A DNA stretch of 21,217 bases, taken from positions 1 through 21,217 of IMG/VR virus record IMGVR_UViG_3300022698_000323; one strand, written 5' to 3'. The translations under genes and the position numbers were made by a program. Origin of the DNA: a virus. Below are positions 3,733 to 21,217 of this stretch, in pieces (position 1 is the stretch's first letter; every line of letters begins with the position of its first letter). A model generated the notes under the pieces. That model made no database searches. It had not been told where the DNA came from and saw only the letters and a list, made by a program, of their open reading frames with translations.

Positions 3733-3978
3733 ATGGCATGCACAGGATGCGGAAAAAGAAAAGATCCCGGCAGACCAAAGCCGGTACACTTGAAAAGTTA
3801 CGTGAGTATCAACCAAGTAATATCGATCCTGAAAAGTTACAACGTGTCTTACACACTGATAAGAGTCTCAGGAGTTTCTTTTATAAGAATGTGTCTGTGT
3901 AAACTGACTACACCGCTTATGAAAGATCTGCAGAAACTTAAAACTGATAGTAAGGGTCTTCCAATACATTACTACTAA
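3733..3978 (+). CDS. small Cys-containing protein, 81 aa
   Basis: The product begins with Met-Ala-Cys-Thr-Gly-Cys-Gly followed by a basic stretch, a Cys-x-x-Cys motif that could bind zinc or be part of a redox pair. The rest is short and hydrophobic/basic, with no clear domain. It is chosen because its stop overlaps the terminase start in the TAATG arrangement used several times in this operon. A GGAG sequence lies 9 bases before the ATG, one of few possible ribosome binding sites here. A second, also protein-like frame runs through the same DNA (3738-3902), so one of the two may be spurious. Confidence 0.5.
   Translation: MACTGCGKRKDPGRPKPVHLKSYVSINQVISILKSYNVSYTLIRVSGVSFIRMCLCKLTTPLMKDLQKLKTDSKGLPIHYY
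3738..3902 (+). CDS. alternative-frame ORF, 54 aa
   Basis: This frame overlaps the 81-residue gene. Its product is very basic at the start, then has a charged, amphipathic composition (for example LEKLREYQPSNIDPEKLQRV) that looks more like an ordinary soluble protein than the product of the other frame. Starts at ATG 3738 or 3747 are possible. It may be the real gene, an overlapping second gene, or chance. Confidence 0.35.
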   Translation: MHRMRKKKRSRQTKAGTLEKLREYQPSNIDPEKLQRVLHTDKSLRSFFYKNVSV

Positions 3979-6074
3979 TGTTCACGAATACCATACTGTT
4001 TTCGGAAGCTGCTCAATACAAACTAAAGCATGGTGTGTATTGCAAGGCCCCCTATCAGTCCAAAGATTACGATGACTTCTGGAATGAACAGGATAAACGG
4101 TGTAAATATGGATACTCCGTCGGCGGTACACGAATTACAGGGTATCATTACTGGTTCCTCAACTTTAAGCAGCTCGAGATCGTTGAAAACCCTCATGCAC
4201 GAGCTTCGAAGAAAATACTCAGCTTTCCCCGATTCTGGCAGGTCCACTATGAGTTCTTTCACGCACTGGAAAAAGCTGAGGACGCCGGCAAGCACTTTAT
4301 TATACTCAAACCGCGTGGATCCGGATTCTCTGAAATCGCTTCTGCCATGGCTACACGCGATTACACTCTGTATCCGGGATCTAAATCTTTCTTCTTTGCA
4401 TTCGATAGAGGATATCTTACAAAGGATGGCGTACTTACTAAGTGCTGGGACCACCTCGAGTATCTCAATCAAAACACTGAACGAGCTTATAGACATCTTC
4501 GACAAGTCAAAAATCAAGACCTTCATAAGCGAGCCAGTTGGCTTGACAGTAAAGGCGAGGAGAAAGGGCATAAGTCTGAGATCATCGGTAGGATTATTGA
4601 CAACCCTAGAAAAGTGCGGGGTGCTAGAACCGGGTCTAAAGGAAAGGTATACTTCGAAGAAGGTGGATCCTTCCCTGATCTAGAATCTGCAGTCACAACC
4701 ACAAGACCACTTGTTGAGCAAGGAGGGGTTGCGACCGGTCAGATTGTCGTTTGGGGTACAGGCGGTGAAGACGGAAAAGGTATAGAAGGTCTGGAACGTA
4801 TTTTCAGTGATCCGGAAACGTATAACTTCTACGCTTTCAAGAATATCTGGGATGAGAACATGGCTGATCAAAGCTGTGGATACTTCTTTCCGGTTACGCA
4901 TGCCATGGACAGGTTCATGGATAGTAACGGAAATTACCTGGAAGATGAAGCCTGGGAATTCCAGAAAGCTGAACGTGCCAAGATACGTAAATCCAAACCA
5001 CAGGCAGAAGATAAGTACATTGCTGAATATCCCATATCCCCGCAGGAAGCTCTTATTAGGGCCCGACAGAACATCTTCCCGGTAGCTGAGCTGCAACGGC
5101 AGTTATTGCATGTTCAGACAGATAAAGCCATCCAGGGATTTTTGAAACATGGAGATCTCTACAGAGATATTGATGGAAAAGCCAAGTTCCGGATCAATCC
5201 AAAAGCCCGGCCCCTGGTAGAATGGCCACTGAATGACGTAGATGATAAAGATGGTTGTATCACAATACTCGAAACTCCCTACAAAGACCAGATGGGAATC
5301 GTCCCGGACGGACTCTACTACATCTTACTGGACGCTTACTACCTTGACCAGTCCGAATACAGCGACTCTGTCGGGGCCGCTTACGTTTACAAGTCAATCA
5401 ACAACGTATCACCTACAGAAGACGACCTCTTCGTCGGCTGGTATGTCGGAAGACCGAAGACACTCGACATCTTCTATAAAAACCTCTTCCTGTTGGCCGA
5501 ATATTACAATGCTACGATCCAATCTGAGATCTCAGGAGGAGGAAAGGGCGTGTATGATTACGCTAAAGCAAAAAGGTTACTACACAGACTGGAAAAGGAA
5601 CCACATCTCATATTTACACAGGATAACCCGAGAAAAGAGGCAAGCCGGAGCTATTTCATGAAAATGCCTAATGACCGGGTACCGTTAGCACATACATATC
5701 TGGCTGAATGGCTTCTGCAAGAACGTTCCATATCAGAAGAAGGTACTGTTCTCAATCTTCACAGGGTTTATGACGAAGGTCTGTTGCGAGAATTGATCAA
5801 GCATAACGATCAGGGCAACTTTGACCGGGTGTCTGCAGCCAGACTTACTCCTTTCATGATTAAGGAGAAGGTAGAAGAGCGTGTAATGGCGTATGAAAGA
5901 AGCTCTAACAGCTTCTGGGACAGGGATTTCTTTGCTGACAGTCAACATTATGACAGTTCTTTTAACCTACCCGTTGCAGTAGTAGGTATGGCAGAAGACC
6001 AGGATCCTGAATATCCAGATAAGGATGATCCTTATACTGATTGGATGGAAGAAGTAGCAGATATCAGGGAGTAA
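3978..6074 (+). CDS. terL: terminase large subunit
   Basis: The packaging motor ATPase and nuclease, which cuts the concatemeric genome and drives it through the portal. The ATPase half has a Walker A-like loop at residues 111-119 (KPRGSGFSE) and a Walker B at 224-228 ending in Glu-Glu, the second Glu being the likely catalytic base. A Gly-Thr-Gly-Gly coupling motif follows at about 260-263. The C-terminal nuclease half shows the three expected acids: Asp452 in LLDAY, Glu517 in QSEIS and Asp616 in NFDRVSA. At 698 residues it fits the long terminases of crAss-like phages. The P-loop has Phe where Lys is usual, so the Lys at 111 or Arg at 113 may do its job. The start overlaps the previous stop (TAATG). 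The portal gene follows after a 105-base structured gap. Confidence 0.95.
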   Translation: MFTNTILFSEAAQYKLKHGVYCKAPYQSKDYDDFWNEQDKRCKYGYSVGGTRITGYHYWFLNFKQLEIVENPHARASKKILSFPRFWQVHYEFFHALEKAEDAGKHFIILKPRGSGFSEIASAMATRDYTLYPGSKSFFFAFDRGYLTKDGVLTKCWDHLEYLNQNTERAYRHLRQVKNQDLHKRASWLDSKGEEKGHKSEIIGRIIDNPRKVRGARTGSKGKVYFEEGGSFPDLESAVTTTRPLVEQGGVATGQIVVWGTGGEDGKGIEGLERIFSDPETYNFYAFKNIWDENMADQSCGYFFPVTHAMDRFMDSNGNYLEDEAWEFQKAERAKIRKSKPQAEDKYIAEYPISPQEALIRARQNIFPVAELQRQLLHVQTDKAIQGFLKHGDLYRDIDGKAKFRINPKARPLVEWPLNDVDDKDGCITILETPYKDQMGIVPDGLYYILLDAYYLDQSEYSDSVGAAYVYKSINNVSPTEDDLFVGWYVGRPKTLDIFYKNLFLLAEYYNATIQSEISGGGKGVYDYAKAKRLLHRLEKEPHLIFTQDNPRKEASRSYFMKMPNDRVPLAHTYLAEWLLQERSISEEGTVLNLHRVYDEGLLRELIKHNDQGNFDRVSAARLTPFMIKEKVEERVMAYERSSNSFWDRDFFADSQHYDSSFNLPVAVVGMAEDQDPEYPDKDDPYTDWMEEVADIRE

Positions 6075-6179: not shown

Positions 6180-8690
6180 ATGGCGGTACCAGCACCAATT
6201 CAAAGGGAAGAGCATAAGCGTAAACCCTATACAGGTGGAAAACCATTGCTCAAAGTAGGATGGAACAAGAAAACCGGTAATAACTTTGAGCACACTAAGG
6301 ATGTCATAGACTATTTTATTGAGTGTACTTACTTTCAGGATCAGTACACATCAAATGTCGGTAATTACCGGGACCTGTACGTTTTATACGATGCCTACAA
6401 CAACATCATTCCTGAAGAATACTTCCACTACGTTACCAATCCCCTCAACAGCAGCAAAAAAGAACACTCCAACTTTCCAGCACGTATCCGTCCATACAAC
6501 ATCATCCGGCCGAACGTTGATCTATACCTGGGAGAATTTGACAAACGACCTAAAAATTACACTGTTGTAGTCAAAAATGAAGACACACTCAACCATCTCG
6601 AGCAGGAGATCTACAAGAAGATCCTTGAAGCAGTCAGCCAGCTCTTCATAAACGCAATAAACGAAAATGGAGGTGGGGAACAGACTGGTATTCCCAGTCA
6701 GAAAGTAGAACCGCCGGCAGAGATACAGGCAAAAGAGTTGGGAAATTACAAAGATGAACGTGCTGTATGGGGTCAGGAAGAGCTTGATCGCATGAATGAA
6801 GAGCTTGAACTGGACAGTGAGTTCGCCAGGCAATGGAAAGACTACATAATCGCCGGAGAATGTTTCTCTTACAAAGGAATAGAGCATGGAGACCCTGTGT
6901 ACGAGAGGGTAAGTCCCCTGGATATTGACTTTGATAAGTCACCGGACGAGAGATTTGTAGAAGATGGTGCCTGGGCCGTGCGAAGACAGTATGTATTACC
7001 TTCAGACGTAGTTGCAAAGTTCTACGATGAGATAGATTCTGATGATATCGATGATATCGAGTCACAGGATGCTACAATGCCTTTTACTTCTACTTACTTC
7101 AATACTTTGTTCGGGAACAGCTATCGGCGTGAAGAAGACCTGAGACGTACAAAACTCGTCCTGTACCATGTAACCTGGAAGTATTACAAGAGAATAGGCT
7201 TCTTGACCTTCAAGGATGAACTTGGAGAGGAACAAGTCATTGAAGTCGATGAGTCTTACAAGCCCGATAAGTCAAGGGGAGAGTCTGTTGAATGGATTTG
7301 GATCACCGAGTGGTGGGAAGGATACAGACTCGACTCCCCGAACATTGCTGCTAACCCTGCAGAAGGTACTGATGACAAGATTTACAACTACTTCAGGATT
7401 CGGCCGGTACCGTATCAGAGGTCTACAGTTAATAACTTCAGTTATTGCAAGGGCCCTTATAACGGATTCCGGTTTTCTGACACGCATTCAAGAAACACAT
7501 CTATTGTAGAACTCTCAATGCCTTATCAGATCCTGTATATCATCATGCATTACAGGCTGGAACTGACAATTGCCAAGTCAAAAGGCAAAATAGCCCTGCT
7601 TGACCGTGGTACCATACCTAATACTAAGGGCTGGGATGAGGAGAAGTTCTTTTACTGGTCTGAAGCCCATGGTTTTGCCCTGTTAGACAGGTTTCAGAAA
7701 GGAGTCGACCGGTCATGGAACCAATATCAGGTGCTTGACATGAGTTTATTCGAGCACATCCAGAACCTGATTAAGATCATGGACTGGATCCGTGTAGAAC
7801 TCGACACTCTTATGGGCTTTTCACCGCAGCGTAAAGGACAAACACAAGCTAGTGAGACCGCTTCCGGGATTGATGCTGCCAGGTACCAGTCAAGTGTTAT
7901 ATCTGAGCGCATGTTCAAGAGTTTTGACGAGTATCTTCGCCGTGAGCGTAAAGGTTTGCTTGACATTTCTAAGTTCAGAGATAATCTCGGCCGGAAGTAC
8001 ATCAGTATGAATGATGATATGAAGGCCATGATGATGACAGTAGATCCTATCAAGTACATAGAGACTGATTTTGATGTCTATGTCACTGATTCTACTGAAG
8101 AACTCAATAATCTTAACATGCTTAAGCAAAATCTGCAGAGCATAGCTTCTCAATCCAACAAACCATCCGTACTTGCTGAGATTGTACAGGCACGTAATGT
8201 AAGCAAGCTCAAGCAGATACTCAGGAAAGCTGAAAAGGAAGAAGCTGCCATGCAGCAACAACTTGAGCTTTCTAAACAGGAAGCTGAAGCTGCTAACATA
8301 GAAAGACAGCAAGCTTATAAGCAAATGGAAGCGGAGATTGACCTGATGCTGCAGAACAATGAGTGGGAGCACAGAAAAGAAGTAGAGCATATTAAAGGTC
8401 AGTACGATCTGGCAGATACAGATCAGCCCGGAGATACTCTGGACCCTGTAGCTGTAGAGGAGACATTGATGAAACGGGAAGAACTTGTAGATAAGAAAGC
8501 ACTTGAGCGTAAAAAACTGGAACTGGAAGAGAAAAAGCAGAACCAGGAAGCACGTCTGCAGGAGAAAAAACTTAAGATGGAAAAATACAAAGCTGACACT
8601 CAGTACAAAATAGCAAAGGAAAATAAGAACCGCTATGATACCAAAACTACCCCATCCACGGGTAAGAGTGGTAGGTCTAAAACATCCTAG
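6180..8690 (+). CDS. portal protein, crAss-like
   Basis: This protein forms the ring at one capsid vertex through which DNA enters and leaves. Its length of 836 residues and the order of conserved parts match crAss-like portals. Residues about 62-92 hold a Tyr- and Asn-rich stretch, and about 104-124 include RPYNIIRPNVDLYLGEF. Near 544-570 is a Gly-Phe-Ser-Pro and Ala-Ser-Glu-Thr-Ala-Ser-Gly region like the conserved core of the phage portal family. From about 675 to 820 it is a long Glu/Lys/Gln-rich coiled coil, followed by a basic Ser/Thr tail; this extension is larger than in most portals and could face the capsid interior or scaffold. The gene lies between terminase and scaffold-like protein, as expected. 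The start is preceded by a stem-loop. Confidence 0.9.
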   Translation: MAVPAPIQREEHKRKPYTGGKPLLKVGWNKKTGNNFEHTKDVIDYFIECTYFQDQYTSNVGNYRDLYVLYDAYNNIIPEEYFHYVTNPLNSSKKEHSNFPARIRPYNIIRPNVDLYLGEFDKRPKNYTVVVKNEDTLNHLEQEIYKKILEAVSQLFINAINENGGGEQTGIPSQKVEPPAEIQAKELGNYKDERAVWGQEELDRMNEELELDSEFARQWKDYIIAGECFSYKGIEHGDPVYERVSPLDIDFDKSPDERFVEDGAWAVRRQYVLPSDVVAKFYDEIDSDDIDDIESQDATMPFTSTYFNTLFGNSYRREEDLRRTKLVLYHVTWKYYKRIGFLTFKDELGEEQVIEVDESYKPDKSRGESVEWIWITEWWEGYRLDSPNIAANPAEGTDDKIYNYFRIRPVPYQRSTVNNFSYCKGPYNGFRFSDTHSRNTSIVELSMPYQILYIIMHYRLELTIAKSKGKIALLDRGTIPNTKGWDEEKFFYWSEAHGFALLDRFQKGVDRSWNQYQVLDMSLFEHIQNLIKIMDWIRVELDTLMGFSPQRKGQTQASETASGIDAARYQSSVISERMFKSFDEYLRRERKGLLDISKFRDNLGRKYISMNDDMKAMMMTVDPIKYIETDFDVYVTDSTEELNNLNMLKQNLQSIASQSNKPSVLAEIVQARNVSKLKQILRKAEKEEAAMQQQLELSKQEAEAANIERQQAYKQMEAEIDLMLQNNEWEHRKEVEHIKGQYDLADTDQPGDTLDPVAVEETLMKREELVDKKALERKKLELEEKKQNQEARLQEKKLKMEKYKADTQYKIAKENKNRYDTKTTPSTGKSGRSKTS

Positions 8691-9931: not shown

Positions 9932-11473
9932 ATGAACAGTAGAAGTAACAAATTCCGATTCCAGGTTCACCAGGACATTTTTGATGGTAAGGATCTGCTG
10001 GACGAGCAGAACTTTTATCATCAGCGTTATGGCAAACCTGATGAGCTGTCCATGAAGCTTACTTGGCTTCTTGGTGACAGTACAAGATCTTTCCCGTTGA
10101 CAATGTCAACAATGGGTGATGTCGTCACACCTTCAGGGTTCAAAAAGAACAATGCGAAGGTAAAAGAGCTGAACGACATTCAGTACACGTATCCGGTAAT
10201 GTCCCGGTTGAACAAAGCCATTGTGCTTGCAGCAAGCAATTCGGACACCAATGCCGGACTGGGCGGTCAGGATTTTTACCTGACTTTCACGGACAACTGG
10301 GCCAAGCAGCACTATATGATTGAATCTCCCCTGGGAGTTCAGGCATATATCCTCGAAGCACCTACGAAGGTATCCGAGGGATGGCGTTATCGTTTGCAGC
10401 TTAACGCTGTAACCGACAAGACCGTCGTGCCATTGTCCGAGATGGTAGCGGGGACAAAGTGGGTTGAACTCAACACCTTCAATGCAGAATCCGAATCTCG
10501 CGGTACTGCATTCAAGCGTGTAGCTCCTGGTAAATTCAAAAACCAGATGAGCATCATCAGGCTCTCACACCAATGGGCCGGCAATGCTGCCAACAAAGTC
10601 ATGCCGATCAAGATTAGCCATGAAGGCAAAAAGAACATGGACCTCTGGATGGACTTCGAACACTATCAGTTCGAGCGTGCCTGGTTGGAAGAGTGTGAGC
10701 ACATGTTCTGGTACAGCCGGTACAACCGGAAAGCCAATGGTACCATCGATCTGCAGGACATCCTGACAGGAAAAGTAATCCCGACCGGTGCTGGCCTGCT
10801 TGAGCAGGTGAACAATTACAGCACCTACACCAGTCTCACTTACAATTACCTGCAGAACACTGTTGCCAACGCACTGTTTGGCCAGTCTGACACTGACGGT
10901 ATGAGCATTACGCTCTACACCGGCCGTGGTGGTATGCGTGAGTTTGACGCTGCGATGAAGTCTGCTGGTATCACCCAGCTCTTGCTCCAGGGGGGTGGTG
11001 GAAACATCGCCGAAAAATTCGTTGGCGGCACCAACTACAACCTGGTGTCCATGGGCTTCTTCGATGCAATGTACCACATTGACGGGTACTACATCAAAGT
11101 AAAGCACAATCCGGTATTTGATTACGGTCGTAGGGCCCTGAAATCACCCCTGCACCCGGAAACGGGATATCCGCTGGAATCTTACCGGATGGTTTTCATC
11201 GATGATGGTACCTATGAAGGTGAGCCTAACCTTCAGGTAGTTACTGAGAAAGGTCGTAGGTTCCTGCACGGAGTCGTTCCGGGCATGTCACCACTGCCAC
11301 GTCAGTACCGAATCCTGCAAGGAGCCGGAAACCTCAATTCAGGAAACCTGAGTCTGATTACCACAGACGTTGACAAGAGCTCCTATCACAGACTTATGGT
11401 CGGTGGAGTTCAGATGCGTAGGGGTAATACCAGTCTGCACCTCGAGTCTATCGCAGGTCTGGTGACTCTGTAA
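9932..11473 (+). CDS. major capsid protein, crAss-like HK97 fold
   Basis: The shell-forming protein, 513 residues. The assignment rests on its place after portal and scaffold-like gene, its size, which fits crAss-like capsid proteins, and its sequence character. It has no N-terminal signal, is rich in Gly, Asn and aromatic residues throughout, and has a conserved-looking core (RLSHQWAGNAANK, about residues 210-222). Codon choice is strongly biased (CTG for Leu, AAC for Asn, GAC for Asp, CGT for Arg), as expected of the most abundant phage protein. It starts 21 bases after the previous stop without a Shine-Dalgarno sequence. An intrinsic terminator follows about 50 bases after its stop. The HK97 fold itself is inferred. 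Confidence 0.85.
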   Translation: MNSRSNKFRFQVHQDIFDGKDLLDEQNFYHQRYGKPDELSMKLTWLLGDSTRSFPLTMSTMGDVVTPSGFKKNNAKVKELNDIQYTYPVMSRLNKAIVLAASNSDTNAGLGGQDFYLTFTDNWAKQHYMIESPLGVQAYILEAPTKVSEGWRYRLQLNAVTDKTVVPLSEMVAGTKWVELNTFNAESESRGTAFKRVAPGKFKNQMSIIRLSHQWAGNAANKVMPIKISHEGKKNMDLWMDFEHYQFERAWLEECEHMFWYSRYNRKANGTIDLQDILTGKVIPTGAGLLEQVNNYSTYTSLTYNYLQNTVANALFGQSDTDGMSITLYTGRGGMREFDAAMKSAGITQLLLQGGGGNIAEKFVGGTNYNLVSMGFFDAMYHIDGYYIKVKHNPVFDYGRRALKSPLHPETGYPLESYRMVFIDDGTYEGEPNLQVVTEKGRRFLHGVVPGMSPLPRQYRILQGAGNLNSGNLSLITTDVDKSSYHRLMVGGVQMRRGNTSLHLESIAGLVTL

Positions 11474-11565: not shown

Positions 11566-11853
11566 ATGGACATACCTCTTGCTTTTGCTTCATTGATGGT
11601 TGGAAAGCGTATCCAGAACTTTTACTATGAATTAGGGATGGGTAAGCTTTCTGACCAAGCAATGGAATTACTCAAAGCAATACACGGAGATTCTTTAATG
11701 GAAAGCGGAATGGACAACTCATACTTGGTATTAAAGATCGACGATCAAATCTACTATGAGGGTGTTCGCAAGACTCCGGTGAAGACATCCACTCTTAACC
11801 TCAAAGACTTTCTCAATCAATTCATAACAAAACAAACAGATCATGCCGTTTAA
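11566..11853 (+). CDS. hypothetical small protein, 95 aa
   Basis: Unknown function. The product has a helical N-terminal half and a short beta-strand-like middle (YLVLKIDDQIYYEG), then a polar C-terminus. It starts just 16 bases after the terminator T-run. Transcription of this gene must therefore come by read-through or from a promoter I cannot see. Its 3' end overlaps the next gene by 11 bases. Its size and place after the capsid gene would fit a capsid decoration or head-closure protein, but no motif supports that. Confidence 0.65.
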   Translation: MDIPLAFASLMVGKRIQNFYYELGMGKLSDQAMELLKAIHGDSLMESGMDNSYLVLKIDDQIYYEGVRKTPVKTSTLNLKDFLNQFITKQTDHAV

Positions 11854-12943
11854 AACTGTAGAAATCCACCGCCAATACAGCTTTGCTGAAGAGGCTAACC
11901 AAGATCCCCAGGTACGGGAGTACTTCGATATGACCTACAGGTCTATCGGGCCCTACCCAAGGATCATTGGTAAAATTCCTGAATCGGGTCTTTCTCCCAA
12001 AGAAGAAGAGATCCTGTTACCTCATCTTGTGGGCTACAAGCCCGGAGAACGTGAATACAGGGAAGAAGTCAACAAGTTCTTCAATCAGATCAATACACAC
12101 GTGCCGGCAGAAGGCAGAAAACTGATCGTCAGCCTTGAAGATGACAAAGCACCGTTATCCCAGGATAACCTGCCTGTCAAGATTGAAGACTTCATCAGGT
12201 ACAAGCATGCGCTCAAGCATCCACAAGTTGGTAAGAACCGGGAAGAAGCTGAGCGTTACCAGCACAAAAAGTTTTATGTGCTAGACCAGGATGAGCAAAC
12301 TTTGACAGCATCCAAGATGCTCAAAGTAGAAGATCAGGCTCAGGAATACTACCTGCAGGTACGCAAAGATCCTCAGAAGGTAGACATGGTTCTTACTCTT
12401 CTGAATATCGATACTCGTGCACTGAGTCCAGATGAGATGAATCTTGAACTCAAACGCCAGGCTACCAGTGATCCGAGCCAGGCTGATGTGATCAACGAGC
12501 AAAAGCTTGACAGGTTCATCAATATCTGCAAAGACCGCGACATGCAGATCAAGTATGATATCTATCAACTGATCAGTCACGGTATACTTGAAAGGGTATC
12601 ACGCAGAATACTCGACAGGGAGTCCGGGAATGTACTCGGCAACAACCTGAAAGAAACTGTACTGTTCTTTAAGGACAAGGCTAACGCAAAGCAGGTGAAT
12701 TACTACCAGGCTGAGTTGGAAGAGTCCAGGAGGAAAGAGGGTAAGAAATCTATCATACCAGCAACGATCTCTCAAGACAAACAAGAAGAGACCAAGAAGA
12801 CTACTTCCAAAAAGAAGTCAGCTCCAGCTACTAAAAGCAAACCATCAAACGAAGAACCTGAAGCAGCAATAGCTGAGTTCAGTGAAGACACCAGTCTGGC
12901 TGACTTCGAGGTTGACGATGATGAGAAAGGAGAAGAATCATGA
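11843..12943 (+). CDS. structural-region protein with disordered tail, 366 aa
   Basis: Residues 1-310 are rich in charged residues and mostly helical. They hold no motif I can name. From about 312 to the end the chain is low-complexity: first Lys/Thr/Ser-rich, then Glu/Asp-rich, ending in a strongly acidic stretch. The tail looks disordered. Genes at this place in crAss-like phages code for virion proteins such as cargo or connector components, so a structural role is likely but unproved. The last codons form an AAAGGAG sequence that serves as a good ribosome binding site for the next gene, and the stop overlaps its start (ATGA). Confidence 0.7.
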   Translation: MPFKTVEIHRQYSFAEEANQDPQVREYFDMTYRSIGPYPRIIGKIPESGLSPKEEEILLPHLVGYKPGEREYREEVNKFFNQINTHVPAEGRKLIVSLEDDKAPLSQDNLPVKIEDFIRYKHALKHPQVGKNREEAERYQHKKFYVLDQDEQTLTASKMLKVEDQAQEYYLQVRKDPQKVDMVLTLLNIDTRALSPDEMNLELKRQATSDPSQADVINEQKLDRFINICKDRDMQIKYDIYQLISHGILERVSRRILDRESGNVLGNNLKETVLFFKDKANAKQVNYYQAELEESRRKEGKKSIIPATISQDKQEETKKTTSKKKSAPATKSKPSNEEPEAAIAEFSEDTSLADFEVDDDEKGEES

Positions 12944-13338
12944 AACTGAAAGGATTCCAGCCATTCATGAATTTTCTTCTGTGTGAATTGCATACAGATG
13001 CAAAAACCAAGTCGGGACTTCTACTGCCTGAAGACGTAAGTGACAGGTGGTTGAAAGTTCTTAAGACAGGTCCCAAAGTAGAGAATATCAAAACGGGACA
13101 GTATGTTCTGATGAACCAGCCCAGCGCTATCGAGATGACCTTTGAGGATGGCAAGAGATGCCTTCTCTTTCAGGAGTTCAACGTATGCGCTACCTACAAT
13201 CCGGATAAAGATGAAAAGCAACCATTCTACGCTCCTACACCCGAGCCTAAAGCCCGGCAGGATGATAATGGTATGAACATCATTGACAATCCGGGTATAG
13301 ATAAGGGCCCGTGGATAAACGAAATGCCGGAAGCATAA
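12940..13338 (+). CDS. GroES-like co-chaperonin-like protein
   Basis: Residues 1-87 follow the pattern of the GroES family. There is an N-terminal strand region (FMNFLLCEL), and the place of the mobile loop is taken by TKSGLLLPED at 23-32, which resembles the family's Gly-Ile-Val-Leu-Pro motif. A Val-Leu-x-x-Gly-Pro step follows at 40-45, then a Thr-Gly-x-x-Val-Leu segment at 52-57 and a final strand with Phe-Asn-Val near 80-82. The 45-residue C-terminal extension is Pro-rich and acidic. Co-chaperonins cap GroEL; T4 gp31 replaces GroES for capsid folding. Whether this one acts that way or uses the fold as a structural part is unknown. It is one of few genes with a Shine-Dalgarno-like sequence (AGGAG 8 bases ahead). 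Confidence 0.6.
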   Translation: MKLKGFQPFMNFLLCELHTDAKTKSGLLLPEDVSDRWLKVLKTGPKVENIKTGQYVLMNQPSAIEMTFEDGKRCLLFQEFNVCATYNPDKDEKQPFYAPTPEPKARQDDNGMNIIDNPGIDKGPWINEMPEA

Positions 13339-13339
13339 C

Positions 13340-14479
13340 ATGCCAAGACTAAACACAGCCTTTGAGATGCACCTTGAGGTGCTCCAGGCCTTACAAAAAG
13401 TAGATGGGTTTCAGCAGGATATTTTCCTACCTGCTGAGATTGATCTACATCTTAACAGGGAACAGGACAGGTTGATTGAAAAACTCTTCAACAAAGACTT
13501 CCAGGACAAACAGCTCAGGCTAGATTACGTGAAGAACATTGTTGTAAAGAACAAACAGATTCCTGTGTATGTACCTGTTGCAGGTGAGTACGCATACGCC
13601 GCTAACATGGTTTACGGTGTTTTGCCCAGTGATTACCTGCACCTGATCAACGACAGATCCCTGGCTACGTATTCTACGGATCCCGGGCTGTGTTTAGATC
13701 TTGGAATCATACCGACAGAAGTAGTAACCGAGAGACGTGCAGTATTGCCTTTTCCAAAGTCTACTTCAGATACAGGACCGTATTTCAAGAACCTGAAAAT
13801 AACAGTCAATGAAGGTGCCGGTGATACTGAAATCTATACCGCCCCTGAAGTGCTACAAAATCAGCCCGGGGAAGAAGGAGACTACACCATTATCAGAAAC
13901 ATCCTTGAGACTACTTTCGAGGGATATGAGTTCTACTGGGAAAGATACAGAGAACTTTACTATCCAGGTAGTTTCATCATACTCACAGACTCGGCGACTA
14001 CAGTAAGTTTTACAATCAGTATGGTAAAACCAGACTCCAGTCCGGATGTAACTACTACTGTACTTGTAGAACCGTACAATTATGCCCAGTACGATGATGA
14101 CGCTGTACTTGACATATCAGGAAGAGCTAATATAGAAATAGAAAACAGGCTTACTGAAGGTGATGAACTGTACGAGCTCAACAAGAATGTCTTCTACAAA
14201 ACACGTAAAAGAGAACCCGTGAGCTCACTGGATAGGGGATATTTAAGGGTATATCAGGATAAAAGCTATATAGTAACCTCCCTAAGTATCGACTATGTTA
14301 GGAGGCCCAGACAGATTTCTTTAGATTTAGATCAGTCTTGTGAACTCGCAGCTAATGCTCCAAGAATTATAGTAGACGGCTGCGTAACCTATTTAAAGAG
14401 AATTCTGGAAAATCCTGCATACAAGACTATGGAGGAAGACAGTATAATTGGAAATCAAAATATTCTGAACAATGCCTAA
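13340..14479 (+). CDS. head-tail connector (ring) protein, crAss-like
   Basis: A 379-residue protein. The N-terminus contains a helical segment (HLNREQDRLIEKLF, about residues 37-50) followed by an Arg/Asp-rich helix. The C-terminal part has SCELAANAPRIIVDGCV (about 333-349) and a further helix. I remember such a pair of motifs from the ring or connector proteins of crAss-like phages, which stack below the portal and join head and tail. The middle is beta-rich with many Thr and Tyr residues. Position between capsid genes and fiber genes agrees. It begins one base after the previous stop and overlaps the next gene by 8 bases. Confidence 0.7.
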   Translation: MPRLNTAFEMHLEVLQALQKVDGFQQDIFLPAEIDLHLNREQDRLIEKLFNKDFQDKQLRLDYVKNIVVKNKQIPVYVPVAGEYAYAANMVYGVLPSDYLHLINDRSLATYSTDPGLCLDLGIIPTEVVTERRAVLPFPKSTSDTGPYFKNLKITVNEGAGDTEIYTAPEVLQNQPGEEGDYTIIRNILETTFEGYEFYWERYRELYYPGSFIILTDSATTVSFTISMVKPDSSPDVTTTVLVEPYNYAQYDDDAVLDISGRANIEIENRLTEGDELYELNKNVFYKTRKREPVSSLDRGYLRVYQDKSYIVTSLSIDYVRRPRQISLDLDQSCELAANAPRIIVDGCVTYLKRILENPAYKTMEEDSIIGNQNILNNA

Positions 14480-15820: not shown

Positions 15821-16537
15821 ATGGCACTCGAACTTAATATCTGCAGAACTGCTACAACCGCTGATTGCGGTACAGTTACTATAACAGACCAAACAGGAAA
15901 TTACGACGCAGTCGACAATGTTGGAGGATATGGTACGCCCAATCCTGACAGAGCTGATCTTGCCTTATTCCTTATGGGATGGAAATGGGTTTCTCCGGAT
16001 GAAGACGATCCTGAAGATGTGCCCTTGACGATCAATAATGATGATCCACTGAATGTAACTTCCTGGGACATTGCCCAGACAATCGATGGGTATTACTACT
16101 ACAAGATATTTGGAGTACCGGTATGGGATGTAGCTGTAGCGTATACTACTGGAGATGTAGTGTACGACTCTACTTACCAGGCATACTACAAAGCGTTACA
16201 AGGTAGTACCGGATCCCAGCCCGGAGCAACTCCGTTAGATTGGGAAGTAGTAGAAAATCTACTGGAAGAAGAAGACAATGACAGTATCTATCTTACAGAT
16301 TACAATGATGTTGTGTACTGCAGGGCTGAGGCATGCGTCGCTAAGATTCTGAGTGATTACACAGATCAATGTTGTAAAAAGTGTGATGGGTACGACATAT
16401 GCAAGCAATGGATCCAGGCTGAAACCCTGTTCCAGTCTGCGCTTGTAAATTCCTACCAGGAGAAGTGGGCAGAGTCAGATTATATCTTACGTTATCTCGC
16501 AGACCTGTGTTCTAATGTAGACTGCAGTGTCTGTTAA
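15821..16537 (+). CDS. Cys-rich protein with carbohydrate-binding-like module
   Basis: A 238-residue protein that probably belongs to the tail or fiber base. The N-terminal 90 residues carry a Thr-Gly-x-Tyr and Val-Gly-Gly-Tyr-Gly-x-Pro-Asn pattern that I have seen, with limited certainty, in virion proteins of Bacteroidota phages. Residues about 100-142 match the CBM5/12 plan: Trp, then Ala-Tyr-x-x-Gly-Asp-x-Val, a Tyr-Tyr-Lys-Ala strand, Gly-x-x-Pro and a final Trp. That family binds chitin and similar glycans. The C-terminal 75 residues are helical and hold nine Cys, including a Cys-Cys pair and the last residue. They may bind metal or form disulfides. The fiber gene follows after 11 bases. 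Confidence 0.7.
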   Translation: MALELNICRTATTADCGTVTITDQTGNYDAVDNVGGYGTPNPDRADLALFLMGWKWVSPDEDDPEDVPLTINNDDPLNVTSWDIAQTIDGYYYYKIFGVPVWDVAVAYTTGDVVYDSTYQAYYKALQGSTGSQPGATPLDWEVVENLLEEEDNDSIYLTDYNDVVYCRAEACVAKILSDYTDQCCKKCDGYDICKQWIQAETLFQSALVNSYQEKWAESDYILRYLADLCSNVDCSVC

Positions 16538-16548
16538 AACCTGAGTCA

Positions 16549-18150
16549 ATGTTTACAGCAGCTCAAAAACAAAGCATTCTGTACCAGGCCCAGGTAAAGC
16601 TGGGAGAACTGGGATACGAAATAGCGCAACTTGAACGCTACAGGGAACCTTGTACTGAACTCTATATACAAGGAAAAACGATTATTGCCTATATCAGGGT
16701 TCTCCAGCAACAAGAGCAACGGCAAACACTCACAGATAAAGAGCTGGAGAAGATCTATATTGCCTTGCGAGACTGTGCTGATATTCAAGATTATCCCATT
16801 GCGAATCCCCTTTCCGGTGTAGCAAACAACATTGTAGTTGGTGGTCAAGGTCCTGCCGGCCCTCCCGGGCCTCAGGGACCTACCGGACCTACCGGTGCAA
16901 CAGGAGCTGCAGGAAATGATGGTAATGATGGGGATCCCGGTGTACAGGGTAATCCCTACCGTACCATATTAATTTCTTCGGGATTTGATGAGGCTGCTAT
17001 TTCCGCAATTCAGACTACTCAGGGAGATTACCTCGTTAACAATAACGAATACTATACCGTCTATGTGGAAGCTGATACAAGAGCAGATACTAACGTACCA
17101 GCCGGTATTACTGGAGACATGTCAGGACACGTGGTTGCCTATGAGTCTCCAGGAGTCTGGTATGATTGGGGACAGTGGTTGGGACCTGCAGGCCCTCAAG
17201 GAATTCAAGGTATACAAGGTGCTACAGGTCCCACGGGTCCTGCTGGAGCAAATGGAGCAGTTTGGTTTACCGGATCTGGAATCCCTTCGGCAGGACTTGG
17301 ATCCAACGGGGATTTTTATCTACGAATTACCTCTACTAAAATTGCTCCCCCTGACGGAGATGTATATCAAAAAGCAGGAGGAGTCTGGAGCGTCGTCGGA
17401 AACATCCTCGGACCTGTCGGCCCTGATGGACCTGCTGGACCTGAGGGACCCGAAGGTGATCGTTATGCAACTACCTCTGTAACAAGTGTTGCAATACCAA
17501 TATCACATCCTACAGTAGTATCTCTTGTTGTAGAAACAGGTCTTGCTTACAGTCCAGGACAAGAAGTTATTGTAGCTTTTGACGGTAGTAACTTTTTTAC
17601 CGGTCTTGTAATTAGCTATGATGATCTTACCGGAGATTTGCAATTAAACTCTTCAAGTAATACAGGTACAGGCACCTATGCTACATGGGATGTTAATTTA
17701 ACCGGTGCTGCCGGACCACAAGGAGATCCCGGTTTGGATGGAGATACCGGAAAAGCATTAATACATATAGAAGATGATATCACACTCGATGAAGCAAAAG
17801 TCATTGCAGTCGAAGGAGGAGCTTGGACACCACAAGACCCCTACGCTGCGAGTGTCTTTGCAGATTCAAGGTCAAACCAGGGTTTACCTGCTCCGTTGGC
17901 AGGATCTATGGTTGGACACAGTATCGCGTATGACGGCACAAGCTGGTACGACAATGGAATCTGGAGAGGACCTCAAGGCGTAACAGGTGCAACTGGTCCA
18001 ACTGGACCTCAAGGACCTACAGGTCCTGCAGGAGCAACTGGGCCAGCAGGACCAGCTGGAGCTGATGGCAGGACTGTACAAGTATTTACAGGACCTAGTA
18101 CCCCGGGAGGAACTATATTTGAAGGAGATGTTTGGTTACCTGGAGCATGA
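16549..18150 (+). CDS. mosaic collagen-like tail fiber protein
   Basis: A 533-residue trimeric-fiber type protein. The helical head at 1-98 probably anchors it to the virion. Five Gly-x-y collagen-like tracts (about 99-136, 211-236, 287-304, 387-401 and 473-507) alternate with small beta modules. The modules at 137-210 and 402-472 are related: both hold an Ala-Asp-Thr/Ser-Arg step, then Met-x-Gly-His and a Trp-Tyr-Asp end. The module at 237-286 (with Asn-Gly-Asp-Phe-Tyr-Leu) reappears in short form at the C-terminus (508-533). The module at 305-385 resembles a domain common in phage fibers. The function inferred is an extended stalk with receptor contacts. Early tracts use G/C-ending codons, late ones A/T-ending. 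The stop overlaps the next start as ATGA. Confidence 0.85.
   Translation: MFTAAQKQSILYQAQVKLGELGYEIAQLERYREPCTELYIQGKTIIAYIRVLQQQEQRQTLTDKELEKIYIALRDCADIQDYPIANPLSGVANNIVVGGQGPAGPPGPQGPTGPTGATGAAGNDGNDGDPGVQGNPYRTILISSGFDEAAISAIQTTQGDYLVNNNEYYTVYVEADTRADTNVPAGITGDMSGHVVAYESPGVWYDWGQWLGPAGPQGIQGIQGATGPTGPAGANGAVWFTGSGIPSAGLGSNGDFYLRITSTKIAPPDGDVYQKAGGVWSVVGNILGPVGPDGPAGPEGPEGDRYATTSVTSVAIPISHPTVVSLVVETGLAYSPGQEVIVAFDGSNFFTGLVISYDDLTGDLQLNSSSNTGTGTYATWDVNLTGAAGPQGDPGLDGDTGKALIHIEDDITLDEAKVIAVEGGAWTPQDPYAASVFADSRSNQGLPAPLAGSMVGHSIAYDGTSWYDNGIWRGPQGVTGATGPTGPQGPTGPAGATGPAGPAGADGRTVQVFTGPSTPGGTIFEGDVWLPGA
16843..18069 (+). repeat. five collagen-like Gly-x-y tracts in the fiber gene
   Basis: The tracts lie at about 16843-16956, 17179-17256, 17407-17460, 17707-17751 and 17965-18069. 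They have Gly at every third residue with much Pro, Ala, Thr and Gln, the pattern of a triple helix stabilised by Thr and Pro in bacteria and phages. Synonymous codons vary from unit to unit, so the DNA is less repetitive than the protein. Confidence 0.9.
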
Positions 18151-19664
18151 GTAGAAAACGATCATATAACTGGATATTCGGAGACGATGCAAGGATCAGC
18201 TTTGATACTGATCCTCCTACAGTACTCGCTATGCCTGCAACTGGTTTTGACCAGAGAGAAGGATGCGATACTATATCTGATCCGGTGACCGGTGAACTAT
18301 TGTTTTATACTGATGGTAACAGACTATACAGGGCAAATGGTACGATAAAAGCCAGTTTTATATCTGGTATGGGCAGCAGTATGTCTATGCAAGCTGTAAC
18401 CATTGTCAGACAAATAGGTACCGGAAGTACTTACTACATGTTTTTTGTAGATAACTGGTCATCTTCTACAGCTGGAGAAATCCGTTACAGGGTTTATAAT
18501 CCTGAAACAGATGTACTGGGAACACTGACTACACTGGATACTTTTTCAGGAATAATCGGGTATAATGAAGTGCTCACTGCAGCGCTTGGCCATGATGGCA
18601 CATATCATTGGATCATTACAAAGATGCGTGGCAACAATCTGATACGTATCTGGAAACTTGACAATACTGGTATTACCGGCCCTTTTGACAAAGCTACAAC
18701 ATTTACCTGGCTTGGTAGTAACCGGTTTGGCCAGTTGAAGGCATCACCTGATGGGAAATTTCTGGTAATGGCATCAGGATTTGCAGGTACTGATAATTTC
18801 TGGCTGTGGGCATTCAATAATCAGACAGGAAACATCCTGACAGAGCACAAGGAGACCTTACCGTATAACGATCCGATAGGTGTAGATTTCTCACCGAATT
18901 CCAGAAACATCTACGTAAGCTATTATGGTACGGCCGGAACTAACGTGATAGCCAAGTTAAGGCTATATGCTTATAACTATCTGGGATACAGTGAAGTTAC
19001 TGTAACTTCGACAGCAACCTATCAGGGAGCTGTTCAGCTAGGGGCTAACAAGAAAATATACATAGCGCAGTATCTTAATAATGAACTGCTTGTTATTAAT
19101 GATCCGGATGCTGATGCTGATTTAGCAGCACCGGATATTACTACATTGAACATAAATACGCAGGGAGGTGTGTCCAAACTTGGATTACCGGTAGTTCCGC
19201 AAGATGCTGTAGCAGATGGAATAAAAGATTACCGGGTTTTTGACGGAGTTCAATGGAGGTCCGTTTGCGCCGGAGATGACATCAGGTATTATGATGGCTC
19301 TACGTGGCAGTTACTACAAGCAGGGGATAGGTATTATGATCAGACACTCAATGAATGGGTTGACATAGTTTGTAATCTTACTTATGAGACTATATACTTT
19401 GCTGCTCCTCTTATCGGAGTGCAAGAACCAGCACTTCCACCATTTAATACAGGAGCTTATACTCAAATACTTCTGGAGAATGTTGCAGGAGCATTTTTAT
19501 CTGTAGGCCAATTCATAAGGATAGTAGACAACGGTTTACTAAATGGTGAATGGGAAGTATTTCAGGTACAAAGTGTAGGAGCAGACCTTCAGATCATTAT
19601 AGACGCTGCTTGGAGTGTTTCATACAATACAGGGGGACAAGGATTAATTCCTACATTATTATAA
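18147..19664 (+). CDS. beta-propeller protein of Bacteroidota secreted-protein type
   Basis: A 505-residue protein in the fiber operon. Residues about 7-57 run Asn-Trp-x-Phe-Gly, Asp-Phe-rich strand, Glu-Gly-Cys-Asp-Thr-Ile-Ser-Asp, then Gly-Glu-Leu-Leu-Phe-Tyr-Thr-Asp-Gly. This is the start of the propeller found in many large secreted and gliding-associated proteins of Bacteroidota. Blade-like strands follow, with Ser-Pro-Asp-Gly-Lys-Phe at about 200 and Phe-Ser-Pro-Asn-Ser at about 248, as in WD40 or YncE-like propellers. After it come small Tyr/Trp repeats (about 360-410) and a C-terminal beta domain. There is no signal peptide. The phage probably uses it on the virion for surface binding. 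ATG 18147 was chosen (ATGA overlap) over a TTG at 18132. Confidence 0.75.
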   Translation: MSRKRSYNWIFGDDARISFDTDPPTVLAMPATGFDQREGCDTISDPVTGELLFYTDGNRLYRANGTIKASFISGMGSSMSMQAVTIVRQIGTGSTYYMFFVDNWSSSTAGEIRYRVYNPETDVLGTLTTLDTFSGIIGYNEVLTAALGHDGTYHWIITKMRGNNLIRIWKLDNTGITGPFDKATTFTWLGSNRFGQLKASPDGKFLVMASGFAGTDNFWLWAFNNQTGNILTEHKETLPYNDPIGVDFSPNSRNIYVSYYGTAGTNVIAKLRLYAYNYLGYSEVTVTSTATYQGAVQLGANKKIYIAQYLNNELLVINDPDADADLAAPDITTLNINTQGGVSKLGLPVVPQDAVADGIKDYRVFDGVQWRSVCAGDDIRYYDGSTWQLLQAGDRYYDQTLNEWVDIVCNLTYETIYFAAPLIGVQEPALPPFNTGAYTQILLENVAGAFLSVGQFIRIVDNGLLNGEWEVFQVQSVGADLQIIIDAAWSVSYNTGGQGLIPTLL

Positions 19665-19668
19665 GACA

Positions 19669-20454
19669 ATGGATTGCGAAAACGTTAAAAAATATATCAT
19701 AGAGCGGATAGCTGGTGTTCCAGGACCTCAAGGACCACAAGGACCTCCGGGCCCTCCAGGACCAGGTGCAAGTCTTCCCATTGCGGCAAGTGACATAAGC
19801 GTTACCAATCCAGGTTATGCTAACTTGCAGGAATTGCTGGATGATCTACTTTATGTAGAAATAGTCATTAATTCTTTTGGTCTGTCACAGTCAGTCTATG
19901 AGATAGGTGGAGCGGTATCATCGCTCCCCTTCTCGTGGACGCTAAACAAGAATCCTGTAACTCAGCAAATAACCGGAGACAACATCACAGCTATTACAGG
20001 ACTTACAACTGCAACAAGAAATGTAACTGCAGTACCAAGTCCTATTATTACCGGTTCAGCTCCTGGAGATTCTTTTGCCTGGACACTGCAGGTCAATGAT
20101 GGAACCACCGTAAAGACCAGAAACACAAGCCTTGTATTCTACAATGGAGTTTTTTGGGGAGATGCTGCAATACCGGGATTACTTGATTCTACGTGGATTA
20201 GAAATAATCTGACCAAAGCTTTACAATCGGGTAGAGGTAGAAATTTTACATCCAATGCTGGAGTAGGTGAATATGCCTGGTATGCTCACAGGAGTGCACT
20301 GGGTAATGCTAATTTCGAAGCCGGTGGTTTTCCAGGTGGATTCGAAGCTCCTCAAGTGATATCCTTTACAAACGCAAGTGGATACGTTGAGAATTATAAT
20401 GTGTATAGATCAACTAACCCGGCTATTGGGCCGGTTGACATAACTGTAACATGA
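19669..20454 (+). CDS. second collagen-like fiber protein
   Basis: A 261-residue fiber protein. Residues 1-16 are a short helix, and residues 17-33 are a compact collagen-like tract with Gly-Pro-Gln and Gly-Pro-Pro units. After a linker comes a beta-rich part (about 60-140). A C-terminal domain with Phe-Tyr-Asn-Gly-Val-Phe-Trp-Gly near 150 and a Gly-Gly-Phe-Pro-Gly-Gly-Phe stretch near 225-231 follows. The last region, with Phe-Thr-Asn-Ala-Ser-Gly-Tyr then Tyr-Arg-Ser, recurs in tail fiber tips of diverse phages as I remember them, so this may be the receptor-binding end. It starts 4 bases after the propeller gene, and its stop overlaps the next start as ATGA, so the three are probably co-translated. 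Confidence 0.8.
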   Translation: MDCENVKKYIIERIAGVPGPQGPQGPPGPPGPGASLPIAASDISVTNPGYANLQELLDDLLYVEIVINSFGLSQSVYEIGGAVSSLPFSWTLNKNPVTQQITGDNITAITGLTTATRNVTAVPSPIITGSAPGDSFAWTLQVNDGTTVKTRNTSLVFYNGVFWGDAAIPGLLDSTWIRNNLTKALQSGRGRNFTSNAGVGEYAWYAHRSALGNANFEAGGFPGGFEAPQVISFTNASGYVENYNVYRSTNPAIGPVDITVT

Positions 20455-21217
20455 GTCAAGCTGTAATAGATACCTTAAGTAGAGGCGGATCAGGAATATC
20501 TCCATTTGCCGTTGTTGTAGAACCTGACATCAGTGTTAGTTATATCACTGTAGCGGATCTTACAGCTCGGGATGCCATAGAAGAATGGCGCAGGAGATCT
20601 TATATGAGATGTCATGTAGTCTCAAACGGAAAAGACTACCGGTTAGGTTTGGATACTACAATATCCGGGCAGGCCTGGGCAGAAATTACAACGGAAGACC
20701 TGTCAGATTATCAACTGGTTTCCGAGAAAGGACAACCTGATGGGTATGTACCATTAGGTGCCGATGGTTTTATTTCTCCGAGCTACATACAGAATATCTA
20801 CAGCAACAACTCTTTTGTAGTAGCAGATGAGCCGGCACGGTTTGCCCTGTCAGCGCAGACTGGGGATATCGTAATACAACTTGATGATCCCAGTAATATC
20901 TATGTAAAGCTTAACAACGATTCTCCCCCAACCGATGCATCTGACTGGGGTGTAATTACTTACCCAGGTGCCGTATTATCCGTAAATGGGCAAACAGGTA
21001 ACGTCACGATCAGTATAGCTAATTTACTGGCTGTACCGCAGAACCAGACAGATTTTGATACGGCAGTATCTGCTAACGCTGACCTACTGGCCAACACTGC
21101 CCAAATAGTAATAAACACTGGAGATATCGCTACTCTGTTTTCACAGATAGCAGCTTTACAAGGGAACTCAGACGTATTCATTCCAATATACTCTGCTGTC
21201 AATACTTACAGCACAGG
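20451..21217 (+). CDS. tail fiber protein, 5' part only
   Basis: The frame opens at ATG 20451 (ATGA overlap with the previous stop at 20452-20454) and stays open to the window edge, giving about 255 residues. The visible part holds Pro-Leu-Gly-Ala-Asp-Gly-Phe-Ile-Ser-Pro-Ser-Tyr-Ile, then Phe-Ala-Leu-Ser-Ala-Gln-Thr-Gly-Asp, a Trp-Gly-Val step and Val-Leu-Ser-Val-Asn-Gly-Gln-Thr-Gly-Asn-Val-Thr-Ile. These are the standard hinge pieces of phage tail fiber shafts, in the usual order. After them comes an Asn/Ala/Asp-rich helical stretch that looks like the beginning of a trimeric coiled coil. The receptor-binding tip would lie beyond the window. Confidence 0.85.
   Translation, partial: MSQAVIDTLSRGGSGISPFAVVVEPDISVSYITVADLTARDAIEEWRRRSYMRCHVVSNGKDYRLGLDTTISGQAWAEITTEDLSDYQLVSEKGQPDGYVPLGADGFISPSYIQNIYSNNSFVVADEPARFALSAQTGDIVIQLDDPSNIYVKLNNDSPPTDASDWGVITYPGAVLSVNGQTGNVTISIANLLAVPQNQTDFDTAVSANADLLANTAQIVINTGDIATLFSQIAALQGNSDVFIPIYSAVNTYST

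Follow-up and report, generated by a model that had tools for sequence, protein, structure and literature searches.

A beta-propeller forms part of gp45, the receptor-binding protein in the virion of Staphylococcus phage phi11 (PMC4901313), the eBAP3 fibres of extracellular contractile injection systems combine a beta-propeller with a collagen-like shaft (PMC12923769), and BACON domains occur in the tails of crAssphage and its relatives, where they arrived partly via horizontal transfer (PMC6949934, PMC10136315). Within the crassviruses, a seven-bladed propeller is held by the muzzle protein gp44 of crAss001 (PMC10172136). Here, we describe a 505-residue propeller protein (P0001), encoded in the fibre operon of a 21,217-nucleotide stretch of virus DNA (the window), that is most likely a distal fibre or receptor-binding module built out of a surface module of the host. 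P0001 resembles phi11 gp45 in its use of a propeller, a 'works like' comparison with no sequence relation shown; while gp45 places a five-bladed propeller between helical stem and tower in one chain, the shaft for P0001 is probably a separate collagen-like protein. Likewise, the parallel to eBAP3 is one of architecture, with propeller and shaft in a single fibre protein there and in two neighbouring genes here. BACON, also a domain of Bacteroidota proteins that crass-like phages carry in their tail region, is comparable in its setting but small, Ig-like and often in tandem, whereas P0001 has a seven-bladed-type propeller with a family of its own. It would be the second module, BACON being the first, that crass-like phages have in common with proteins of their hosts. 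Our literature search, confined to open-licence papers, found none linking the Bacteroidota propeller with phages, which is weak evidence of novelty.

The window (IMG/VR record IMGVR_UViG_3300022698_000323, a 21.2-kb virus record) contains a crassvirus-type capsid module and, judged by its sequence, comes from a crassvirus-like (crAss-like) phage: capsid, portal and terminase, which together mark Crassvirales-like genomes, were all recognised by Pfam and PHROG models (Table 1). In profile comparisons, hhalign pairs 11843-12943 with crAss001 gp33 at a probability of 97.7%, and 13340-14479, more weakly, with the ring proteins gp34/gp35. Identity between the capsid protein and its nearest named relatives among crass-like phages is about 29%, low enough that the window possibly stems from an undescribed crassvirus lineage. 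It falls into a crassvirus-like phage group with L073, L078 and L082 (records about 95-96 kb). A GroES-like co-chaperonin gene (12940-13338; phrog_3188, 5.1e-7) is found within this module, on the downstream side of the capsid gene, and several related phages have homologs at the equivalent place.

Table 1. Features of the window relevant to the propeller gene (all on the plus strand).
Feature	Position	Strand	Evidence
Terminase large subunit	3978..6074	+	phrog_6681 3e-108
Portal protein	6180..8690	+	phrog_6547 2.5e-103
Major capsid protein, crassvirus type	9932..11473	+	Pfam Crass_capsid 3.8e-56; phrog_11589
Conserved gene immediately preceding the fibre operon, expected fibre-hub place	15821..16537	+	Comparison with related phages
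Collagen-like tail fibre gene, 533 aa	16549..18150	+	Pfam Collagen 3e-16; PHROG tail fibre families
N-terminal domain (residues 1-85) of upstream fibre, probable virion anchor	16549..16803	+	Conserved in related phages
Propeller gene (P0001), 505 aa: N-terminal seven-bladed-type propeller and C-terminal region	18147..19664	+	
ATGA start-stop overlap, probable translational coupling	18147..18150	+	Junction sequence
Propeller domain, residues 1-352, WYFG...LLFYT[ND]G...GQLKASPDG family, no signal peptide	18147..19202	+	207-bit profile, pLDDT, PDB Z
C-terminal region, residues 353-505, no detected family	19203..19664	+	Low-confidence models
Downstream fibre gene, short collagen stretch	19669..20454	+	Homolog in propeller-less relative, equivalent place
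Next virion/tail-type gene, runs off the window	20451..21215	+	PHROG virion structural/tail matches; L063 homolog

A first-pass annotation of the sequence had placed the propeller gene between two collagen-like fibre genes, with start-stop overlaps at its borders. Both fibre genes are there, the downstream one with a short collagen stretch only, and the overlap holds for the upstream border, where the start of the propeller gene sits in the stop codon of the fibre gene, but not for the downstream one, where a 4-base gap separates the propeller stop (ending at 19664) from the next ATG (19669). In its codon use, the propeller gene (GC3 of 0.33) resembles the fibre genes (0.29-0.36) and not the head and packaging genes (0.42-0.59). 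The low GC3 extends over 16549-21215 and hints that the fibre module has an origin of its own. We also considered the crAss001 tail-hub proteins as counterparts of the gene at 15821-16537 and of the N-terminal domain of the upstream fibre; profile comparison gave no match for either.

The propeller frame itself is intact, and the opening motifs originally noted for residues 7-57 are all present (NWIFG at residues 8-12, EGCDTISD at 38-45 and LLFYTDG at 51-57), with residues 1-70 alone scoring 53.6 bits against the profile of bacterial sequences given below, far above chance. Blade motifs said to follow were found as well: GQLKASPDG occupies residues 195-203, others besides, and homology reaches to about residue 350. 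An AlphaFold2 model built with 45 sequences predicts residues 1-350 as an all-beta domain, the propeller uninterrupted and pLDDT mostly 80-93. Among the 968 PDB chains aligned to the model, 958 had Z values of at least 8; the best solved structure, 1l0q (Z 25.8, 278 residues aligned), is the seven-bladed YVTN propeller of an archaeal surface-layer protein, with PKD following it, and the best matches also include propellers of Bacteroides lactonase type. Structure modelling hence agrees with the six- to eight-bladed propeller that the first-pass annotation had envisaged, and P0001 probably has seven blades, a number taken from its seven-bladed best matches. P0001 alone gave nothing significant in Pfam, NCBIfam, PHROG or PDB sequence searches, WD40 of Pfam did not match it, and the family is without a model of its own in the Pfam and PHROG libraries searched. 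Lactonases and other propeller enzymes do appear among the fold neighbours, and crassvirus tail spikes have been annotated with hydrolase domains (PMC10136315), both of which would suit a fibre-borne putative enzyme that degrades or modifies host surface glycans beyond mere binding. To our minds this is quite unlikely, as Pfam Lactonase stays below its curated cut-off on P0001 (11.7 vs 21.7 bits) and the likeness to such enzymes is one of fold only, at about 11% identity.

What the propeller is related to emerged from bacteria. Our single-sequence lead was a tblastn match in plasmids to a Hymenobacter protein (E 2e-6), next to whose gene a gliding motility-associated C-terminal domain is encoded. 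With an alignment of P0001 and this homolog as query, 28 loci were retrieved from a bacterial genome collection, every one of them (28/28) in Bacteroidota, and at E<=1e-10 the propeller occurs in 57 of 395 genomes drawn across Bacteroidota, mostly within open frames 400 to 1,900 codons long. In the genome of Mesonia aquimarina (G028, locus L030) there are seven propeller matches, several in large open frames, which looks like a lineage expansion. Full-length host proteins carry PKD domains (17/24) and the type IX sorting domains CHU_C (16/24) and Por_Secre_tail (8/24), and 49 of 54 host sequences have a hydrophobic segment before the propeller, upstream of a conserved Trp (a hydropathy proxy used in place of a signal-peptide predictor). 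A profile of the 54 bacterial sequences only matches residues 3-354 of P0001 with 207.4 bits (E 1.4e-62), while the best of 1000 shuffled sequences reached 5.7 bits and the reversed sequence -1.8 bits. P0001 was part of the query that collected these bacterial sequences, a bias that favours close ones and cannot create a score of 207 bits. Going by these profile scores, residues ~3-354 belong to the N-terminal propeller family of type IX-secreted (CHU_C/PKD) Bacteroidota proteins. The homology that the first-pass annotation had proposed is thereby borne out: a propeller is predicted, and its homologs, rather than being confined to unrelated phage fibres, are linked to secreted proteins of Bacteroidota.

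P0001 shares with these proteins full-length propeller homology, opening motif, GQLKASPDG and fold, at about 31-34% identity to its best bacterial relatives, but parts from them in everything that serves export. Only 8 residues precede the conserved Trp, so there is no signal peptide; Pfam PKD, CHU_C and Por_Secre_tail domains are missing, and hence the sorting domain; the C-terminal region is a different one, and the gene is located in a phage fibre operon. Without signal peptide and sorting domain, P0001 is a member of the domain family and not of the secreted protein class. Distribution and loss of export signals together suggest that a bacterial module moved from host to phage, a direction to which the tree, with P0001 on a long branch, lends no support. 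Although widespread in Bacteroidota, the propeller is not represented as a family in any library searched, and no open-licence paper that we found gives it a function. The words adhesin, mimicry and displacement, used in the first-pass annotation, claim more than these data support. A phage that has stripped the propeller to its bare domain and placed it among fibre genes suggests that binding a ligand is what the propeller natively does, and offers a compact, testable version.

Outside the propeller, residues ~355-505 matched no known family, whether searched alone or against related phages, and folded alone they reached a pLDDT of 40. Known fibre-attachment or trimerisation domains were not matched in these C-terminal ~150 residues. 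One weak local similarity (GDRYYDQTLNEWV) leads to the C-terminal end of a large Kehishuvirus tikkala protein that adjoins the crassvirus tailspike. A possible aromatic-D-G-W repeat in the region proved non-specific.

Comparison with related phages (49 capsid relatives retrieved) suggests that the propeller gene is a cassette. L063, whose capsid is ~83% identical, reaches the fibre locus and has counterparts of the two fibre genes that flank the propeller (48% and 42% identical), its collagen fibre split differently from that of the window, and its operon lacks the propeller. P0001 has no match in any of 26 related records, many of them fragments and several spanning the locus, nor does the family profile in the 14 of them searched with it. 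Flanking genes kept in L063 and a propeller missing from 26/26 relatives argue for a swappable unit. The upstream fibre, for its part, has an N-terminal domain (residues 1-85) that is conserved across seven related phages with otherwise dissimilar fibres and stands alone in an eighth (L059), as would fit a virion anchor with exchangeable distal parts. At its other end the fibre runs out in ...VFTGPSTPGGTIFEGDVWLPGA, which looks like the start of a unit found in full nearer the N-terminus of this fibre, so the point of entry of the propeller cassette may lie within a fibre repeat. The propeller gene thus has the placement of receptor-binding-type genes, in a tail-fibre locus variable between close relatives.

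The same distribution speaks to two other explanations. As there is only one propeller example in this crassvirus-like phage group, the gene could be a recent passenger, or an artefact of assembly that joined bacterial to phage DNA, with no role in the phage. We consider this very improbable given its intact frame, the ATGA junction, the fibre-like codon use and homologous fibre genes on both sides, and because the export parts are lost and divergence from bacterial relatives is strong. P0001 could also be a muzzle, or another internal tail protein, considering that it shares a seven-bladed-type propeller and a crassvirus tail or fibre context with gp44; size, domains and gene position differ, however. 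An hhalign comparison of the two gives a probability of 0.24%, and the 505 residues of P0001, against 1371 in gp44, are too few to accommodate a ring-joining domain, two Ig domains and a crass domain. Since, moreover, the muzzle is conserved in crassviruses and the propeller gene absent from close relatives, such a role is hardly credible.

Propellers of the family are not confined to the window. P0001 and representatives of both phage classes defined below found no match by tblastn in 50,697 phage records, and searching viral contigs with P0001 alone was equally fruitless; once the alignment including the Hymenobacter homolog was used, the family appeared in 46 viral contigs. Class A (15 contigs with a full propeller plus two fragments; proteins mostly 370-490 aa) shows a signal-peptide-like start, propeller and, in the two tested, PKD, the sorting domain being absent; a hydrophobic start segment was seen in 14/14 of its proteins. 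Class B (29 contigs) comprises proteins of mostly about 970 aa that have the propeller at about 190-550 and no signal peptide. In the two contigs read closely, the class B gene adjoins a 2,190-2,460-aa open frame, then two conserved genes, RuvC and primase; from these neighbours, the class B products are presumably virion proteins. T4-type Gp23 capsid was detected in 7 of 14 class A/B records tested, and Terminase_6C had no match in the class A/B records tested.

Because class A retains intact signal peptide and PKD, secreted phage versions of the propeller do exist. P0001 might, by analogy, be a free late factor that binds a host surface ligand or protein and, for example, prevents adsorption of progeny or rival phages to the infected cell or to debris; that P0001 has no known virion-attachment domain would be in line with this. 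Unlike class A, however, it lacks the signal peptide and is encoded inside an operon between fibre genes, which makes the free factor unlikely.

We consider it probable, then, that P0001 is an exchangeable distal component of the tail fibre whose propeller derives from a type IX-secreted surface protein of Bacteroidota and binds a ligand on the host surface. It would be made together with the upstream collagen fibre through ATGA coupling and assembled onto the fibre in the cytoplasm, which would explain why it has no signal peptide. Stripped of host export signals, the propeller probably has a second life on the virion, in contact with the surface of the presumed Bacteroidota host: its face may bind a Bacteroidota ligand, glycan or cell-surface protein, putatively the same kind of partner that bacterial propeller proteins touch. 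The precedents of phi11, injection-system fibres and BACON make virion incorporation, binding and such a ligand plausible. Fibre tips usually lie at the C-terminus, and the N-terminal position of the propeller in P0001 counts against the proposal, as do a C-terminal region that matches no known fibre-attachment or trimerisation domain, the single example in this phage group and the long branch in the tree. If the proposal holds, P0001 may help to identify receptor-binding proteins of phages whose hosts are not in culture.

As for the origin of the viral propellers, class A groups into a single clade (98/95), to which a Sphingobacteriaceae protein is sister (96/91), class B forms another (100/100), and P0001 a long branch without supported neighbours or bacterial sister. 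None of the viral-clade constraints was rejected (p-AU of 0.156 for A, B and window, 0.199 for A and B, 0.705 for window and B), and at sites where class B differs from the bacterial consensus, P0001 has the bacterial residue at 26 and that of class B at 8. Three architectures suggest three captures, while one common viral clade is also compatible with the tree. We therefore put forward only tentatively that at least three phage designs separately captured the host propeller as a general tool for recognising the host surface: as fibre cassette, as internal domain in a ~970-aa protein of T4-like phages, with genes for very large presumed virion proteins next to it, and as a secreted protein of large phages that keeps signal peptide and PKD and has lost the sorting domain. 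If true, phages would have turned the propeller against its owners. Finally, in four large Bacteroidota-type phage contigs the propeller gene lies beside gene clusters whose products have signal-peptide-like starts (L014:5901-9350, L009:13564-16105, L005:7929-10493, L012:7264-10471); many of these proteins end in similar short tails (...ISHN, ...IQHN, ...IYTN), and the clusters may represent a set of phage-encoded secreted proteins.
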